Shown: piece by piece, positions 1 through 7,196 of the stretch
Numbering within the stretch: position 1 is the stretch's first letter
Layout of the letters: each line of letters begins with the position of its first letter
From: Caryophanales bacterium
GTDB lineage: Bacteria > Bacillota_I > Bacilli_A > RF39 > UBA660
Assembly: GCA_016290885.1 (NCBI GenBank)
Contig: JAEEVN010000004.1
Coordinates: forward strand, 1 to 64,000
Length of the DNA: 64,000 nt
Direction of reading: 5' to 3'
Made by a program: the position numbers and the translations under genes
The notes under the pieces: generated by a model
Seen by the model: only the letters and a program-made list of their open reading frames with translations
Told to the model about the DNA's origin: nothing
The model's database searches: none

Positions 1-1102
1 AATTCAAGTTAGCTTTTAAAAGTGCTTCTTCTGCGTTTCTTGATTGAGCATTAGTACGATAGAATATTGCTATATCACTCTTGCTATATCCTTCATTTAA
101 AAGTTTGTTAATTTCTTCTAATACTAATGTTAGTTCATGCTTTTCATCATAAGCTCTTAAATACTTTAATTTTACCCCTTCTCCATTTTCACTAAATAAA
201 TTGACTTCCTTTCGTTCTTTGTTGTTTTGGATAACAGAGTTAGCAGCATTTAAAATCATGTTAGTACTGCGATAATTTTGATTTAAAGTAATAACTTCAC
301 ATCCAGGATAGTCTTTCTCGAAATTCAAAATATTTTTAAAATTAGCTTGTCTAAAAGCATATATTGATTGATTAGGATCTCCTACAATAAATATATTTTT
401 ATATTTATTTGCTAATAACTTAGATAACTGATATTGAACTTCATTTGTATCTTGATACTCATCAACTAAAATATACTGATACTTATCTTGATATTTATCC
501 AAAATATCTTCATTATTTAAAAATAATTCAACTGGTAATTTTAATAAATCATCAAAATCAACAACATTATTCTTTTTTAATGTTTTTTCATATTCAAAAT
601 ATACTTTTTTAGCAATTATTTCCATATCACTTAAAAAGTATTTATCTATTTCTTTATCACTTAACATTTCATTTTTAATAAAAGAAATTCTATTTCTAAT
701 ATATTGTGGTGATACTATCTTAGGATCATATCCTAAATTTTTTAATGTTTTTTTAATTACACTTAATACATCATCAGTATCTAAAATAGTAAAGTTTTTA
801 GATAATCCTAATTTTTGATAATTTTCTTTTATTATTCTTAAACCAAATGCATGAAATGTACCAATAAAAGCATAGTTATCACAAACTATTTTACTTATTC
901 TTTCTTTCATTTCTTTGCTTGCTTTATTAGTAAATGTAATAGCAAGAATATTACTACTTTTTATTCCATTAGAAATCAAGTATGCTACTCTTGTAGTTAA
1001 TACTTTTGTCTTACCAGAACCTGCTCCTGCTAGGACTAACATTGGTCCATCTAAGGTTTTAATTGCATCAAGTTGTCTATTATTTAGTCCTTCTAAATTC
1101 AT
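1..1102 (-). CDS. pcrA: ATP-dependent DNA helicase PcrA/UvrD, partial (C-terminus beyond window start)
   Basis: Minus-strand translation begins MNLEGLNNRQLDAIKTLDGPMLVLAGAGSGKTKVLTTRVAYLI (Q-motif plus Walker A GAGSGKT) and runs off the window with ...GYSKSDIAIFYRTNAQSRN. Confidence 0.93.
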   Translation of the reverse strand, partial: MNLEGLNNRQLDAIKTLDGPMLVLAGAGSGKTKVLTTRVAYLISNGIKSSNILAITFTNKASKEMKERISKIVCDNYAFIGTFHAFGLRIIKENYQKLGLSKNFTILDTDDVLSVIKKTLKNLGYDPKIVSPQYIRNRISFIKNEMLSDKEIDKYFLSDMEIIAKKVYFEYEKTLKKNNVVDFDDLLKLPVELFLNNEDILDKYQDKYQYILVDEYQDTNEVQYQLSKLLANKYKNIFIVGDPNQSIYAFRQANFKNILNFEKDYPGCEVITLNQNYRSTNMILNAANSVIQNNKERKEVNLFSENGEGVKLKYLRAYDEKHELTLVLEEINKLLNEGYSKSDIAIFYRTNAQSRNAEEALLKANLN

Positions 1103-1190
1103 TATTATCACCAATTATATTGTACCATATTTATGGTTAATTTTAGTTAAAAATATGGCATAAAAATATATTTTATGCTATTATATAAAT

Positions 1191-1268
1191 GAAGGAGTAT
1201 TTAGGTTTACCTAAATGCCTACCTTTTTGGGTGGACGCTTAAGCTAGCTTAAGTGTCATTTTTTTATT
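1191..1268 (+). ncRNA. putative short antisense RNA (antitoxin candidate) with intrinsic terminator
   Basis: Extended -10 TGC-TATTAT (1176-1184), predicted start ~1191, hairpin GACGCTTAAGCTAGCTTAAGTGTC (1234-1257) followed by ATTTTTTT; overlaps the 3' end/3'UTR of the minus-strand small ORF. Confidence 0.5.
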
Positions 1269-1348
1269 TCTACTATTATTAGTAATAGGAGTAATAATAG
1301 GATACATGAAAAGAGAAGAACTCTTAAGACGTAAATACGCTTTTTCAT
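1256..1348 (-). CDS. 30-aa hydrophobic peptide [30 protein letters not shown], type I toxin candidate
   Basis: Strong SD AAAGGAGG-TGGTATC-ATG, single membrane segment flanked by Lys/Arg, -10 TATAAT at 1405-1410 on the minus strand; too short for the supplied ORF track. Confidence 0.55.
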   Translation of the reverse strand: MKKRIYVLRVLLFSCILLLLLLLIIVEIKK

Positions 1349-1404
1349 GATACCACCTCCTTTCTAGAATGGAAGGTAGACACTTAGCAATAAATACTCC
1401 ATAT

Positions 1405-1410
1405 ATTATA
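1405..1410 (-). promoter_or_regulatory. -10 box (TATAAT) for the 30-aa peptide transcript
   Basis: Perfect TATAAT on minus strand about 57 nt upstream of the ATG; no clear -35. Confidence 0.45.
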
Positions 1411-2060: not shown

Positions 2061-3161
2061 TTATTTGTTTACTACTTTTTGTAATATTGATTCTTCTCTA
2101 TGAGCTTCTTCAATTTGTAACGCAAGTACTCTTGAATTATGCCTTCTAGCATTAACATTTGTTAATGCTCTTCTATAGTCTTCCATATCTTTTAACATAC
2201 CCCATGCACCGAGAGAAGCATATATTGTTTGCTTATATGTACCTTCTCTAGTATCATTAATTGTACCTGCTAAGGATTCAAGCACTTTATTAGATATTAT
2301 TTTCGCCATAGGTTTAAAATATGTATGAACTGCATTTTGATATCTTGTATCTTCGATAAATCTTAAATCTACATAGTTTATACCATATTTTTTACATAAT
2401 TCTTCTAAATTAGAATTATATTCTAATACAAACTCATGGAATGGTATATCATATTCCCTTGTTTTAGAATATAAATATGCTCCTAGAGCTGCTACTCTAC
2501 TTTGGTCATTTAAACCTAGGATTTTATCAAAGTTTCTTTTATGACTATCCATTAATCTAGTCATACTTTCTACTCTTTGTTCACCCTTTGTTCTATCTGC
2601 AGAGTAATCATAGATTTCTCTTTCATTGTAATAAAGGTTCTTAGCATTAAATGGATTTATCCAAAATTCAGACATAATATCATTTATTCCAGAAGAATAT
2701 AGTATTATAGGTTCATTACTATTACGTATTGAACTAGATAATCTAAATTTATCTTTATCTTCTCTATCTTCATATGTTCTTAAAAGTAATTTACTTGCAA
2801 GGTTTCCAATATGTTCACTGAATAGTGATTCTTCTGCATCTTTTCCTAAGAAAGATTCTCCAATTGCATGTTTAACCTCAGTAATTGTTCCATATTGTTG
2901 TATTTGTTCAAGTTCTTTTTGAGATAAATTATTATCTATATAGTAATCTATATGTCTCATTTTATTAAAAAACATTGAAAATGCATTAAATACATCAATT
3001 CTATATTCTTCACTTTGTAATGCTTCTTTCATAAAAGTTAAACAACTCTTTTGAAGATTATAGCATCTGTCATCATTTAACCCCACGATTAACAAATGTC
3101 CATCTGCATTTTCTTCATAGTGTTGACGTATAATTTTTGAACTTTCTTCGTTTTTACTCAT
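2061..3161 (-). CDS. hypothetical protein, possibly SGNH/GDSL-hydrolase-like
   Basis: 366-aa ORF; SSGINDIM resembles the GxND block, and KKYGINYVDL...YQNAVHTYFKP resembles the late SGNH blocks; no clear N-terminal GDS motif. Confidence 0.6.
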   Translation of the reverse strand: MSKNEESSKIIRQHYEENADGHLLIVGLNDDRCYNLQKSCLTFMKEALQSEEYRIDVFNAFSMFFNKMRHIDYYIDNNLSQKELEQIQQYGTITEVKHAIGESFLGKDAEESLFSEHIGNLASKLLLRTYEDREDKDKFRLSSSIRNSNEPIILYSSGINDIMSEFWINPFNAKNLYYNEREIYDYSADRTKGEQRVESMTRLMDSHKRNFDKILGLNDQSRVAALGAYLYSKTREYDIPFHEFVLEYNSNLEELCKKYGINYVDLRFIEDTRYQNAVHTYFKPMAKIISNKVLESLAGTINDTREGTYKQTIYASLGAWGMLKDMEDYRRALTNVNARRHNSRVLALQIEEAHREESILQKVVNK

Positions 3162-3238: not shown

Positions 3239-4141
3239 TTATTTATTTAAATAATTAATTGCATCTAGAGCAGCTATTGTACCATCTGCTACTGCAATAG
3301 TAATTTGAGCATATTTCTTAGTTCTTGAATCACCTGCTACAAATATACCTGGTACTTTAGTAGTTCCATCTTCAGATACTAAGTATCCTCTTTGATCTAC
3401 ATCTAATTTACCATTAACAAACCCATTTTGAGGAATTAATCCTATATTTAAGAATAATCCATCTAATTTAAGAGTTTGCATCTTTCCATCTGCTTCTAGT
3501 TTTACTCCTGTTAATGTATCATCTTCATATAAATATTCTTTAATACCTGAATTATAGATAATGTCTACATTATTACATTTTTCTAATTTATTAGCTAAAT
3601 CTTGTTCACATGTTAAATGATCTAAGTTTTGTAATATAGTTACATGCTTAGCTATATTAGACATAGAATAAGCATTTATGCAAGCAGAATTACCTCCACC
3701 TACTATAGCTACATCTTTATCTTTATAGAAAGGTCCATCACATGCTACACAGAAATGTATTCCATGACCTATTAATTCTTTTTCATGAGGAAGATTTAGT
3801 GTTCTATAAGAAGAACCACTTGCGATAATTATTGTTTTGGCTTTATATGTATTATCTTCTGTGATTACTTCTTTTATATCACCATCTACTTTGATGTCAG
3901 TTACTTCTTCTATTTCGAAATCTACTCCTAGTTCATCTACTTGATCAAACATAGCACTTGTTAAGTCTGATCCAGAGATAGCTTTAAAACCAGGATAATT
4001 TTCTATTAGGGGTGTAGAAGAAGCAGTTCCACCAACTGTTTCTTTCTCTATAATTAATACTTTTCTTCCATCTCTTAGAAGATAAAGGGCACTAGCAAGT
4101 CCTGCTGGCCCTCCTCCAATTATAATAGTATCGTATATCAT
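3239..4141 (-). CDS. thioredoxin-reductase-like FAD/NAD(P)H flavoprotein
   Basis: GGGPAGLASALYLLRDG, redox CVAC, VGGGNSA, ...GIFVAGDSR; follows nrdD in the same operon. Confidence 0.88.
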   Translation of the reverse strand: MIYDTIIIGGGPAGLASALYLLRDGRKVLIIEKETVGGTASSTPLIENYPGFKAISGSDLTSAMFDQVDELGVDFEIEEVTDIKVDGDIKEVITEDNTYKAKTIIIASGSSYRTLNLPHEKELIGHGIHFCVACDGPFYKDKDVAIVGGGNSACINAYSMSNIAKHVTILQNLDHLTCEQDLANKLEKCNNVDIIYNSGIKEYLYEDDTLTGVKLEADGKMQTLKLDGLFLNIGLIPQNGFVNGKLDVDQRGYLVSEDGTTKVPGIFVAGDSRTKKYAQITIAVADGTIAALDAINYLNK

Positions 4142-4142
4142 A

Positions 4143-6509
4143 TTATTTCTCTTCTATAAATTTCTTAATATTAGATACATTTTCGATTAATTTAGATTCA
4201 CCATTAGCATTAACTACTAATGTTGGAGCTTTTTTAACACCATATTGTTTTGTCATATCTGGCATTTCTTCTGCATCAACAAATTCATATGGCATAGATG
4301 CTTTTTCTAATAATTTTTTAGCCATTTTACAATTTGGACAAGTCTTTGTACCAAATAGTAATAAACCATCTTTAGCATCACTCTTTAGAATTTTTTTAGC
4401 AGATGCCTTTGGAACGTTTTTCTTTTTAGGTTCACAATTGCATCCATCAACTTTATATTCTTTTCTCATTTCATATTCTTTAGTCTTACCATCATTCCAG
4501 TTCTTTACTGGTCTATAGTAACCAGTTATTCTAGAATATACTTCTGTTTCTTCATTACAGATAGGACATTTCCATACTTCACCAGTTATATATCCATGGT
4601 TCTTACATACAGAATATGTTGGAGAAATTGTATAATATGGTAATTTATAGTTTTCTGCAATCTTTCTAACTAAGCTTGCACAAGTCTTCCAATCAGACAT
4701 TCTTTCTCCAAGGAATGTATGGAATACAGTTCCTGAAGTATATAATGTTTGTAATTCATCTTGAATATCAAGAGCTTTGAATATATCATCAGTATAACCT
4801 ACTGGTAAGTGTGATGAGTTTGTATAGTATGGAGTATCATCATCAGATGCAGTTATTATATCTGGATATAAACTCTTATCTTTCTTAGCTAATCTATAAG
4901 ATGTAGATTCAGCAGGTGTAGCTTCTAAGTTATATAAATCTCCATATTGTTCTTGGTAATCAGATAATTTTTCTCTCATGAAGTTAAGAACTTTCTTAGT
5001 CCATTTTTGAGCTTTTTCATGAGTTAAATCTTCCCCAACCCATTTAGCATTTAGAGAAGCTTCGTTCATACCTACTAAACCAATTGTTGAGAAGTGGTTA
5101 CTGAATGTTCCTAAATATCTCTTAGTATAAGGATATAATCCTTCTTCAAGTAACTTAGTAACAACATCTCTTTTAATTTTTAATGATTTAGCAGCTAAAT
5201 CCATTAAATGAGTTAATCTTTCAAAGAATTCATCTTCATTCTTTGATAAATATGCAATACGTGGCATATTAATTGTTACAACACCGATAGATCCAGTTGA
5301 TTCACCTGAACCAAAGTATCCACCTGATTTCTTTCTAAGTTCTCTTAAGTCTAGTCTTAATCTACAACACATAGATCTAACATCGCTTGGTTCCATATCA
5401 CTATTAATATAGTTTGAGAAATATGGAGTACCATACTTAGCAGTCATTTCAAATAATAATTTATTATTTTCTGTTTCTTTCCAGTTAAAATCTCTAGTTA
5501 TTGAATATGTTGGGATTGGATATTGGAATCCTCTACCATTAGCATCTCCTTCAATCATGATTTCGATAAATGCTTTATTTACCATATCCATTTCTTTTTG
5601 ACAATCTTTATATTTGAAGTCCATTTCTTGTCCACCGATAATAGCATTTAATTCTGCTAAGTCGTTTGGAACTGTCCAGTCTAATGTAATATTAGTGAAT
5701 GGAGCTTGTGTACCCCAACGAGAAGGTGTATTAACACCATATACAAATGATTGAATACATTGTTTAACTTGTTTATATGTTAAGTTATCTACTTTTACAA
5801 ATGGTGCAAGATATGTATCGAATGATGAGAATGCTTGAGCACCAGCCCATTCATTTTGCATTATTCCAAGGAAGTTAACCATTTGGTTTGTTAATGTTGA
5901 TAAGTGCTTAGCAGGAGATGAAGTTATTTTTCCAGGTACTCCTCCTAAACCTTCTTGAATTAATTGTTTTAATGACCATCCTGCACAGTAACCTGTAAGC
6001 ATTGATAAGTCATGAATGTGATAATCACAGTTTTTATGAGCATTAGCAATATCTTCTGGATAAACTTCATTTAACCAATAGTTAGCTGTAATAGCTCCAG
6101 AGTTAGAAAGAATTAATCCTCCTACTGAATAAGTAACTGTAGAATTTTCTTTAACTCTCCAGTCAGAAACATTTAAGTAACTATCTACTACATTTTTGTA
6201 GTCTAACATAGTGCTATTCATATTTCTTTGTTTTTCATGTAACTTTCTATATAAAATATATGCTTTAGCTACATCAGCATAATCAGATTTAATTAATACT
6301 GATTCTACTGAATCTTGGATATCTTCTACATCAATAATATCGTTTTTGATTTTATCACTAAAATCAGCTGTAACTTTTAATGCTAAGAAGTCTATAACAT
6401 TCTTATCATAATCTTTTTCTAAGCCTTCAAATGCTTTAATAATAGCATCGCTTATTTTGCTAATTTCAAAATTAACAATTTTTCCGTCTCTTTTTCTAAC
6501 CTTATACAT
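4143..6509 (-). CDS. nrdD: anaerobic ribonucleoside-triphosphate reductase with C-terminal redoxin domain
   Basis: ATP-cone start MYKVRKRDGKIVNF; MCCRL finger-loop Cys; Zn motif VCKNHG...KCPIC; glycyl-radical loop SRITGYYRP; fused C-terminal LLLFGTKTCPNCKMAKKLLEKA redoxin domain. Confidence 0.95.
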   Translation of the reverse strand: MYKVRKRDGKIVNFEISKISDAIIKAFEGLEKDYDKNVIDFLALKVTADFSDKIKNDIIDVEDIQDSVESVLIKSDYADVAKAYILYRKLHEKQRNMNSTMLDYKNVVDSYLNVSDWRVKENSTVTYSVGGLILSNSGAITANYWLNEVYPEDIANAHKNCDYHIHDLSMLTGYCAGWSLKQLIQEGLGGVPGKITSSPAKHLSTLTNQMVNFLGIMQNEWAGAQAFSSFDTYLAPFVKVDNLTYKQVKQCIQSFVYGVNTPSRWGTQAPFTNITLDWTVPNDLAELNAIIGGQEMDFKYKDCQKEMDMVNKAFIEIMIEGDANGRGFQYPIPTYSITRDFNWKETENNKLLFEMTAKYGTPYFSNYINSDMEPSDVRSMCCRLRLDLRELRKKSGGYFGSGESTGSIGVVTINMPRIAYLSKNEDEFFERLTHLMDLAAKSLKIKRDVVTKLLEEGLYPYTKRYLGTFSNHFSTIGLVGMNEASLNAKWVGEDLTHEKAQKWTKKVLNFMREKLSDYQEQYGDLYNLEATPAESTSYRLAKKDKSLYPDIITASDDDTPYYTNSSHLPVGYTDDIFKALDIQDELQTLYTSGTVFHTFLGERMSDWKTCASLVRKIAENYKLPYYTISPTYSVCKNHGYITGEVWKCPICNEETEVYSRITGYYRPVKNWNDGKTKEYEMRKEYKVDGCNCEPKKKNVPKASAKKILKSDAKDGLLLFGTKTCPNCKMAKKLLEKASMPYEFVDAEEMPDMTKQYGVKKAPTLVVNANGESKLIENVSNIKKFIEEK

Positions 6510-6518
6510 AATTTCCTC

Positions 6519-7196
6519 CTATACATATCTCACAGTAACGTTAGATTTTCCCTTAAAATATTCTTTTATATTCTTTAATTCTTCTTCAGTGAATCCTTCC
6601 ATCTTCTTAGCCTTTACTGTATCTTCCATTCTGAAGTTTTGTAAGTAGTAAGGATCACCGTCAACTAAATCAATCATTTTCTCTAAATCTTCTATAGTAT
6701 GCATTCCTTTAATTATAGTAGTTCTAAATTCGTGATCAATATTAGATTTTTTAATTAGTTCAATACTCTCTAATAATTTATCAGTATCAATATCTTTCTT
6801 GATGACTTTAAAATATTCATTAAATATTGCTTTTATATCCATTGCGATATAATCAACTAATTTATTATCAATAATCTCCTTTAATACTTCTGGTCTATAA
6901 CCATTAGTATCTAATTTGACTTTGAATCCATATTCTCTTATCTTTTTGATAAATGGTATTAAATCATCCCATATAGTAGGTTCTCCACCAGAGATAACTA
7001 CACCATCTAGCATATTTTTTCTTTCTTCTAAATAAGAAAATATTTCTTCTTCTTTTATCTCAGGAGCATGACATTCAACTAGATCTCTATTGTAACAATA
7101 GTCACAGTCAAAATTGCAACCTGATGTAAATATAATACATGCAAGATTTCCTGGAAAATCTTGAGTTGTTAATTTATTAAATCCGCCTATTCTCAA
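6519..7196 (-). CDS. nrdG: anaerobic RNR-activating radical SAM protein
   Basis: GFNKLTTQDFPGNLACIIFTSGCNFDCDYCYN (CxxxCxxC), VISGGEPT; directly upstream of nrdD. Confidence 0.92.
   Translation of the reverse strand: MRIGGFNKLTTQDFPGNLACIIFTSGCNFDCDYCYNRDLVECHAPEIKEEEIFSYLEERKNMLDGVVISGGEPTIWDDLIPFIKKIREYGFKVKLDTNGYRPEVLKEIIDNKLVDYIAMDIKAIFNEYFKVIKKDIDTDKLLESIELIKKSNIDHEFRTTIIKGMHTIEDLEKMIDLVDGDPYYLQNFRMEDTVKAKKMEGFTEEELKNIKEYFKGKSNVTVRYV

Follow-up and report, generated by a model that had tools for sequence, protein, structure and literature searches.

Based on computational analysis of a 64,000-nucleotide stretch of DNA (the window), we consider, with a probability of about 0.82, that the locus at positions 1147 to 1410 belongs to a previously undescribed family of type I toxin-antitoxin modules and works by the mechanism proposed below; the family may still prove to be listed in T1TAdb. 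The initial annotation had read the locus as a candidate type I module, and this reading was supported by all computational tests that we applied. The elements on which it rests are as follows.

1147-1410, both strands: whole unit, with convergent genes.
1256-1348, minus strand: candidate-toxin reading frame with ATG start and TGA stop, encoding a hydrophobic peptide of 30 residues that has homologues.
1356-1363, minus strand: Shine-Dalgarno (SD) sequence AAAGGAGG, read in the sequence and kept in two sets of alignments of relatives, GGAGG being part of the search pattern for one set and not for the other.
1405-1410, minus strand: -10 element TATAAT of the peptide mRNA, read in the sequence and conserved in position in relatives.
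1147-1400, minus strand: predicted full-length peptide mRNA, both ends placed by prediction, which folds with a 5'-3' closing helix (z = -6.5).
1375-1387, minus strand: element a, the 5' leader word CTAAGTGTCTACC, the pairing partner of element d, containing the anti-SD side.
1247-1257, minus strand: element b, GACACTTAAGC, immediately 3' of the stop codon and one arm of the antisense terminator.
1234-1244, minus strand: element c, GCTTAAGCGTC, the second arm of the antisense terminator.
1210-1223, minus strand: element d, GGTAGGCATTTAGG, the 3' partner of a, complementary to the 5' region of the antisense RNA.
1194-1268 (model span), plus strand: antisense RNA of ~70 nt and candidate antitoxin, with a 5' hairpin and a terminator hairpin, supported by a covariance-model score of 67 bits and by its fold.
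1176-1184, plus strand: extended -10 element TGC-TATTAT of the antisense RNA, read in the sequence and conserved in relatives.
1234-1265, plus strand: intrinsic terminator of the antisense RNA, GACGCTTAAGCTAGCTTAAGTGTC-ATTTTTTT, found by terminator scan.
1158-1178, minus strand: hairpin GCATAAAATATATTTTTATGC followed by CATATTTTT, the likely terminator of the peptide mRNA, proposed from sequence and fold.
1194-1203 with 1391-1400, 1219-1225 with 1373-1379, and 1247-1257 with 1379-1388: three nested inverted repeats.
GGAR(N)ATTTA/GGAACATTC: predicted 5'-end sites of the two convergent transcripts.

When the sequence was re-read, every element that the initial annotation had described was found where it had been placed: the minus-strand frame translates to the peptide given, the SD sequence, both -10 elements and the three nested repeats are present, and the plus-strand hairpin is one of two terminators found by a scan in which 0.1 were expected. 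The T-run of this terminator is the complement of the final lysine codons of the peptide. On the minus strand no T-run follows the shared hairpin, so transcription of the mRNA has to continue beyond the antisense terminator. Conservation among relatives, set beforehand as a check on the reading, was found for the peptide, the SD sequence, the two promoters, the two RNA hairpins and the pairing between the 5' and 3' repeats, with compensatory changes.

The pairing of the two mRNA ends that had been proposed was recovered in the predicted fold of the minus-strand RNA (1140-1400; -68.2 kcal/mol, z = -6.5, with none of 200 shuffles as good), where the first ~30 nt pair with a region close to the 3' end; the suggested masking of the SD sequence and the long-range folding were likewise seen in predicted folds. 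The plus-strand RNA (1194-1266) folded at -26.7 kcal/mol (z = -4.5) into three hairpins, one at the 5' end, a small one in the middle and the terminator. Across an alignment of 78 units, the two antisense-RNA helices were paired in 98.8% of cells as compared to 89.9% in shuffled alignments, with 9 pairs showing two-sided changes, and structures slid along the alignment fell to 19-41%. The mRNA carries four alternating words in the order a (leader), b and c (antisense terminator arms), and d, and a:d together with b:c pairing was predicted in 88 of 93 mRNAs. The alternative pairing a:b with c:d was rejected as the main fold because of this dominance, and is preferred by a few units.

The 13-bp a:d helix, which joins the 5' leader to the 3' end, was paired in 95.4% of cells versus 87.4% after shuffling, and 8 of its 13 pairs showed two-sided changes (52 such cells versus 11.6 in shuffled sets); the rows of this test are distinct a/d combinations, of which some come from weaker classes and were read by eye, and related rows are not independent. 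Element a also pairs better with its own d than when a and d are drawn from different units. Since a and d flank the gene on either side, the fact that they change together is informative, and it could partly stem from a shared origin of the two arms.

Both predicted promoters are kept in relatives. A -10 element with at least five of six matches was present for the antisense RNA in 80 of 85 relatives (5 of 85 after shuffling), and at the expected place for the toxin mRNA in 75 of 93, compared to 21 of 93 in shuffled upstream sequence. With its conserved -10, covarying hairpins and terminator, the plus-strand unit appears to be a gene in its own right that overlaps the toxin gene. A small dyad, CAAGTTTCCTTG, lies ~50-80 nt downstream of d in many units (e.g. 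L022 and L065), just upstream of the antisense -10, and is substituted in other units by GAAG/CTTC, GAGA/TCTC or CGAA/TTCG; it may be either a 3' hairpin of the mRNA or an operator.

We propose the following mechanism, in which the production of both transcripts, the toxic action of the peptide, its repression and the way the switch operates are inferred. The minus strand would give an mRNA for a positively charged, single-span membrane peptide of 30 residues, and the plus strand a constitutive antisense RNA of ~70 nt whose complementarity to the mRNA extends from the stop codon into the 3' region. In the full-length mRNA, leader a would pair with the 3' element d and thereby pull the anti-SD stretch off the SD sequence. 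The antisense 5' end is nearly identical to the mRNA leader, and the antisense RNA would outcompete the leader for the 3' end; the displaced leader would free the anti-SD stretch, which would close the SD sequence. By analogy with systems of the known kind, the long duplex would then be decayed by RNase III, and exhaustion of the antisense RNA would allow the peptide to be made and the membrane to be damaged. Using nearest-neighbour energies, opening of the SD sequence and start codon cost a mean of 9.7 kcal/mol in the full mRNA, 11.9 kcal/mol when the antisense-covered region was removed (higher in 75 of 91 units) and 13.0 kcal/mol when d alone was destroyed (higher in 85 of 91), while predicted accessibility of the SD sequence was low in all states. 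These higher costs without the 3' end or d suggest that closure of the mRNA occupies the anti-SD stretch, and that antisense binding would release it to shut the SD sequence. As this direction rests on differences of 2-3 kcal/mol in a thermodynamic model, we give it moderate weight.

A variant of the main reading, with which it shares part of its probability, keeps the same layout and reverses the switch as in AapA/IsoA: the closed mRNA would be silent, a 3'-trimmed form would be translated, and the antisense RNA would act on the trimmed form. The full-length AapA3 mRNA is indeed inert through a 5'-3' interaction and is activated by 3' trimming (PMC6733600), and the SD sequence of our units is costly to open even in the closed form. 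However, removal of the 3' end lowered SD accessibility in our model, and the long-range helix engages the anti-SD stretch rather than the SD sequence itself, so that we regard the reversed switch as rather unlikely.

Among known systems, the family would appear to work most like BsrG/SR4 and AapA/IsoA. BsrG/SR4 and TxpA/RatA of Bacillus subtilis also have convergent genes with the antisense RNA over the 3' end of the toxin mRNA. The bsrG SD sequence lies in a hairpin, and SR4 binding extends its sequestration from 4 to 8 bp (PMC6562991), which parallels the mechanism proposed here. In comparison to both systems the present peptide is shorter (30 residues) and has no significant family-model match, and its mRNA has a leader that both resembles the antisense 5' end and pairs with the region targeted by the antisense RNA. 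The AapA/IsoA modules of Helicobacter and other Epsilonproteobacteria likewise have a toxin frame of 30 codons, several chromosomal copies, 5'-3' long-range pairing and module-specific antisense RNAs (PMC6733600), and a 5'-3' interaction of the full-length toxin mRNA is what the predicted folds and covariation indicate for our units. The AapA modules belong to another phylum and have other RNA sequences, and their long-range pairing hides the SD sequence itself, whereas here the anti-SD side of the leader is engaged. Convergent RNAs, a short hydrophobic peptide and repeats common to both RNAs are also features of par/Fst (RNA I/RNA II of pAD1) and its relatives (PMC4147584). However, the par repeats are direct, its RNAs are complementary at their 5' parts and it has a shared terminator (PMC4147584), whereas in our units the repeats are inverted, the RNAs start near-identically and the mRNA extends beyond the antisense terminator. 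We consider the mirrored leader to be unusual within the known kind of type I module; the family also comprises several word classes, described below.

Peptide statistics were based on 145 units gathered with a DNA pattern. In 142 of them a start codon stands beside the SD sequence, and 132 of these 142 encode exactly 30 residues. The consensus, MKTKTFIIKVLKLIAIILFLLIIMIVVIKK, has a basic N terminus, a single membrane span and a C-terminal KK. With 30 residues, a GRAVY of 1.67, a net charge of +5 and a 17-residue span at 3.56, the peptide is short, hydrophobic and single-span, as type I toxins usually are. KK at positions 29-30 is invariant within the 30-residue set, a conservation that is partly imposed because these residues lie under the antisense T-run and were included in the search pattern; elsewhere there is almost no variation at positions 4 and 9 (K/R), 6 (F/Y), 11 (L) and 16-18 (IIL). 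Leaving out the last codons, the coding frame had a pN/pS of 0.40, lower than in any of the other five frames; reverse-strand frame -1 gave 0.42, so the signal of coding selection is supportive and not decisive. In agreement with the initial annotation, which had not recognised the peptide as a member of a named family, 16 peptide members gave no significant match to Fst, Hol_Tox or other toxin families in Pfam and NCBIfam, and the peptide, RNA and DNA family was absent from Rfam, Pfam, NCBIfam, PHROGs, PADLOC and the PDB sequences. In Rfam no antisense-RNA match reached the gathering score, the best sub-threshold match having half of it.

An identical layout would suit any tightly controlled membrane peptide, and the peptide appears to be under purifying selection; a rival reading is that it is no toxin and instead a useful small membrane protein, such as a regulator of a membrane enzyme, tuned by the antisense RNA. 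Three features fit a dispensable, addictive toxin better, namely the presence in one genome of numerous copies whose peptides fall into divergent classes, the patchy occupation of the same site among related genomes, and decay that drops the peptide and retains the antisense RNA; we consider a useful peptide improbable.

Decay was followed in the complete class-sample list of antisense matches, taken without preselection for the peptide. We inspected 76 matches, of which 4 were cut by contig ends, and among the remaining 72 an intact, SD-preceded peptide was present in 60 (L216 and L232 were counted as intact by eye, their SD falling below the cut-off of the script) and lost or broken in 12. 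The leader and start were deleted in L247, ATG had become ATA in L252, L228 carried a frameshift, and the 5' half was replaced or eroded in the second copy of L219 and in L223, L224, L226, L233, L245, L250, L272 and L274. The reverse was sought by peptide-profile search of the same genomes, inspecting matches without a model hit, and no clean case of an intact peptide with a lost antisense RNA was found: the copies either retained the antisense half, were interrupted by a contig end or were truncated on both sides. The exceptions were L276 and L277, with an intact peptide and an insertion sequence inside the antisense terminator, which counts against the toxin-antitoxin reading, and L278, which had lost its own leader as well. 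That the peptide is lost first matches the prediction for a toxin-antitoxin pair, and this pattern, in small numbers and between two search methods that differ in sensitivity, is the best hint from the sequences that the peptide may be toxic. Copies with a conserved promoter region and terminator and no intact peptide (L219 at 417-496, L224, L226, L233, L051, L053, and L047 at 1633-1703) are possibly stray antitoxins. Insertion sequences or their remnants (ends like TGAACCCC...TTGGACA) lie within the antisense terminator of L276, L277, L275 and the L021/L249 locus, as if this hairpin were a preferred target.

The source assembly (1.11 Mb; the window is its contig C5) holds at least five diverged copies of the unit, five being found by the antisense-RNA covariance model, at 69-79% identity, including copies that share 79% and 72-74% along most of its length. 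The assembly has two full pcrA/uvrD-like genes that are ~69% identical (window 2-1102, minus strand, and G000:C45:214763-215792), while other genomes of the genus mostly have one full-length match; together with an estimated contamination of 5% this suggests that the bin holds two species, in which case the copies of the genome itself may derive from two organisms. BLAST against 60 relatives gave dozens of units, among them tandem pairs. A further reading takes the unit for a mobile repeat of MITE type that contains a short reading frame by chance. The unit does have genuine inverted repeats at its two ends (GGAGTATTTA...TAAATACTCC), and genomes carry several copies, of which some lie near contig ends. 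This reading is nevertheless very improbable and disfavoured: within one genome the copies are 69-79% identical, short of the near-identity expected for a recent mobile repeat; the conserved parts are the reading frame, the promoters and the RNA helices; covariation is seen in the inner helices and the terminator; and tandem copies stand ~300-500 bp apart.

A DNA pattern of leader, SD sequence, fixed spacing and A-run with stop matched at least 120 genome-contig stretches; those listed came from MAGs labelled as uncultured Bacilli, Tenericutes or Erysipelotrichaceae and from further MAGs without classification, with Ca. Onthousia and Ca. Ventrenecus among them, and many derived from samples of animal gut or rumen. 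With the covariance model, 29 of 397 genomes of the class sample were positive, 28 of them in the family of the window, and in a phylum sample of 396 genomes the positives were confined to this family. Of 199 genomes sampled from this family, 118 were positive, as were 84 of the 124 genera represented, with up to 10 copies per genome. One genome of a different family (G222) carries an intact unit, L192, through either transfer or mis-binning. Searches of plasmid and phage collections with the peptide and the DNA gave no match, the peptide searches being weakened by a low-complexity filter that may mask the peptide.

The module directly adjoins pcrA in five genomes of the genus (the window, G005, G007, G010 and, in tandem, G002), and this site holds no module in seven others. 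Two minus-strand genes lie between the module and trxB in the window: 1458-1952, for a 164-residue protein without Pfam match, and 2061-3161, for a 366-residue protein with a sub-threshold GDSL-lipase match only. In G005 and G007, unlike in the window, a trxB-like gene apparently follows the module directly. Further on, a minus-strand gene at 4143-6509 encodes an anaerobic ribonucleotide reductase (ATP-cone, NRDD) with a fused C-terminal glutaredoxin/thioredoxin-like domain at residues ~703-773; it adjoins a thioredoxin-reductase-like gene (3239-4141) and an activase-like gene (6519-7196).

Weaker covariance-model matches were units of the same layout with different words and peptides. The main class pairs GAGTGTCTACC with GGTAGACATTC; further classes pair GAGTGTCATCC with GGATGACAC, GAGTACTTGCC with GGTAAGTACTC (peptide MKKKDLLISFLILIIILLIVSLMILSIKK), GGGTGATACC or GGGTGCTGCC with GGTAACACTC (peptide MSKKDFLIFSLIFIIFLLIALLFVILK), and AGGTGCCTGCC with GGCAGGCATTTAG (peptide start MAKKDLLIFIQNITIILLVIIVMILAAK). 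Both repeat arms change together between classes, and multiple classes occur within a single genome, e.g. G031, which looks like a set of orthogonal specificities. Three points go beyond the initial annotation, namely the number of copies and their spread through the family, the existence of classes with other repeat words, and the loss of the peptide with retention of the antisense RNA. The layout and its conservation, the covariation of the helices, the class-specific words and the asymmetric decay can all be read from the sequences. At somewhat less than even odds, we tentatively suggest a wider view, in which these are clade-wide type I modules whose toxin leader is a built-in copy of the antitoxin 5' end that competes for the same 3' element; the arms would have co-diverged into several distinct pairs, yielding several orthogonal modules side by side within a small genome, and the stray antitoxins may serve as anti-addiction RNAs.

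Families of small peptides and RNAs of this sort elude gene callers and family databases, and we found no literature on toxin-antitoxin systems in the RF39 group. The covarying natural variants make the specificity of type I antitoxins, and the gating of toxin translation by the mRNA ends, directly testable. The host family consists of uncultured, largely gut-associated Bacilli with genomes of ~0.8-2 Mb, and as more than half of its sampled genomes are occupied, with up to 10 copies each, these reduced genomes would bear a heavy load of unannotated toxins.
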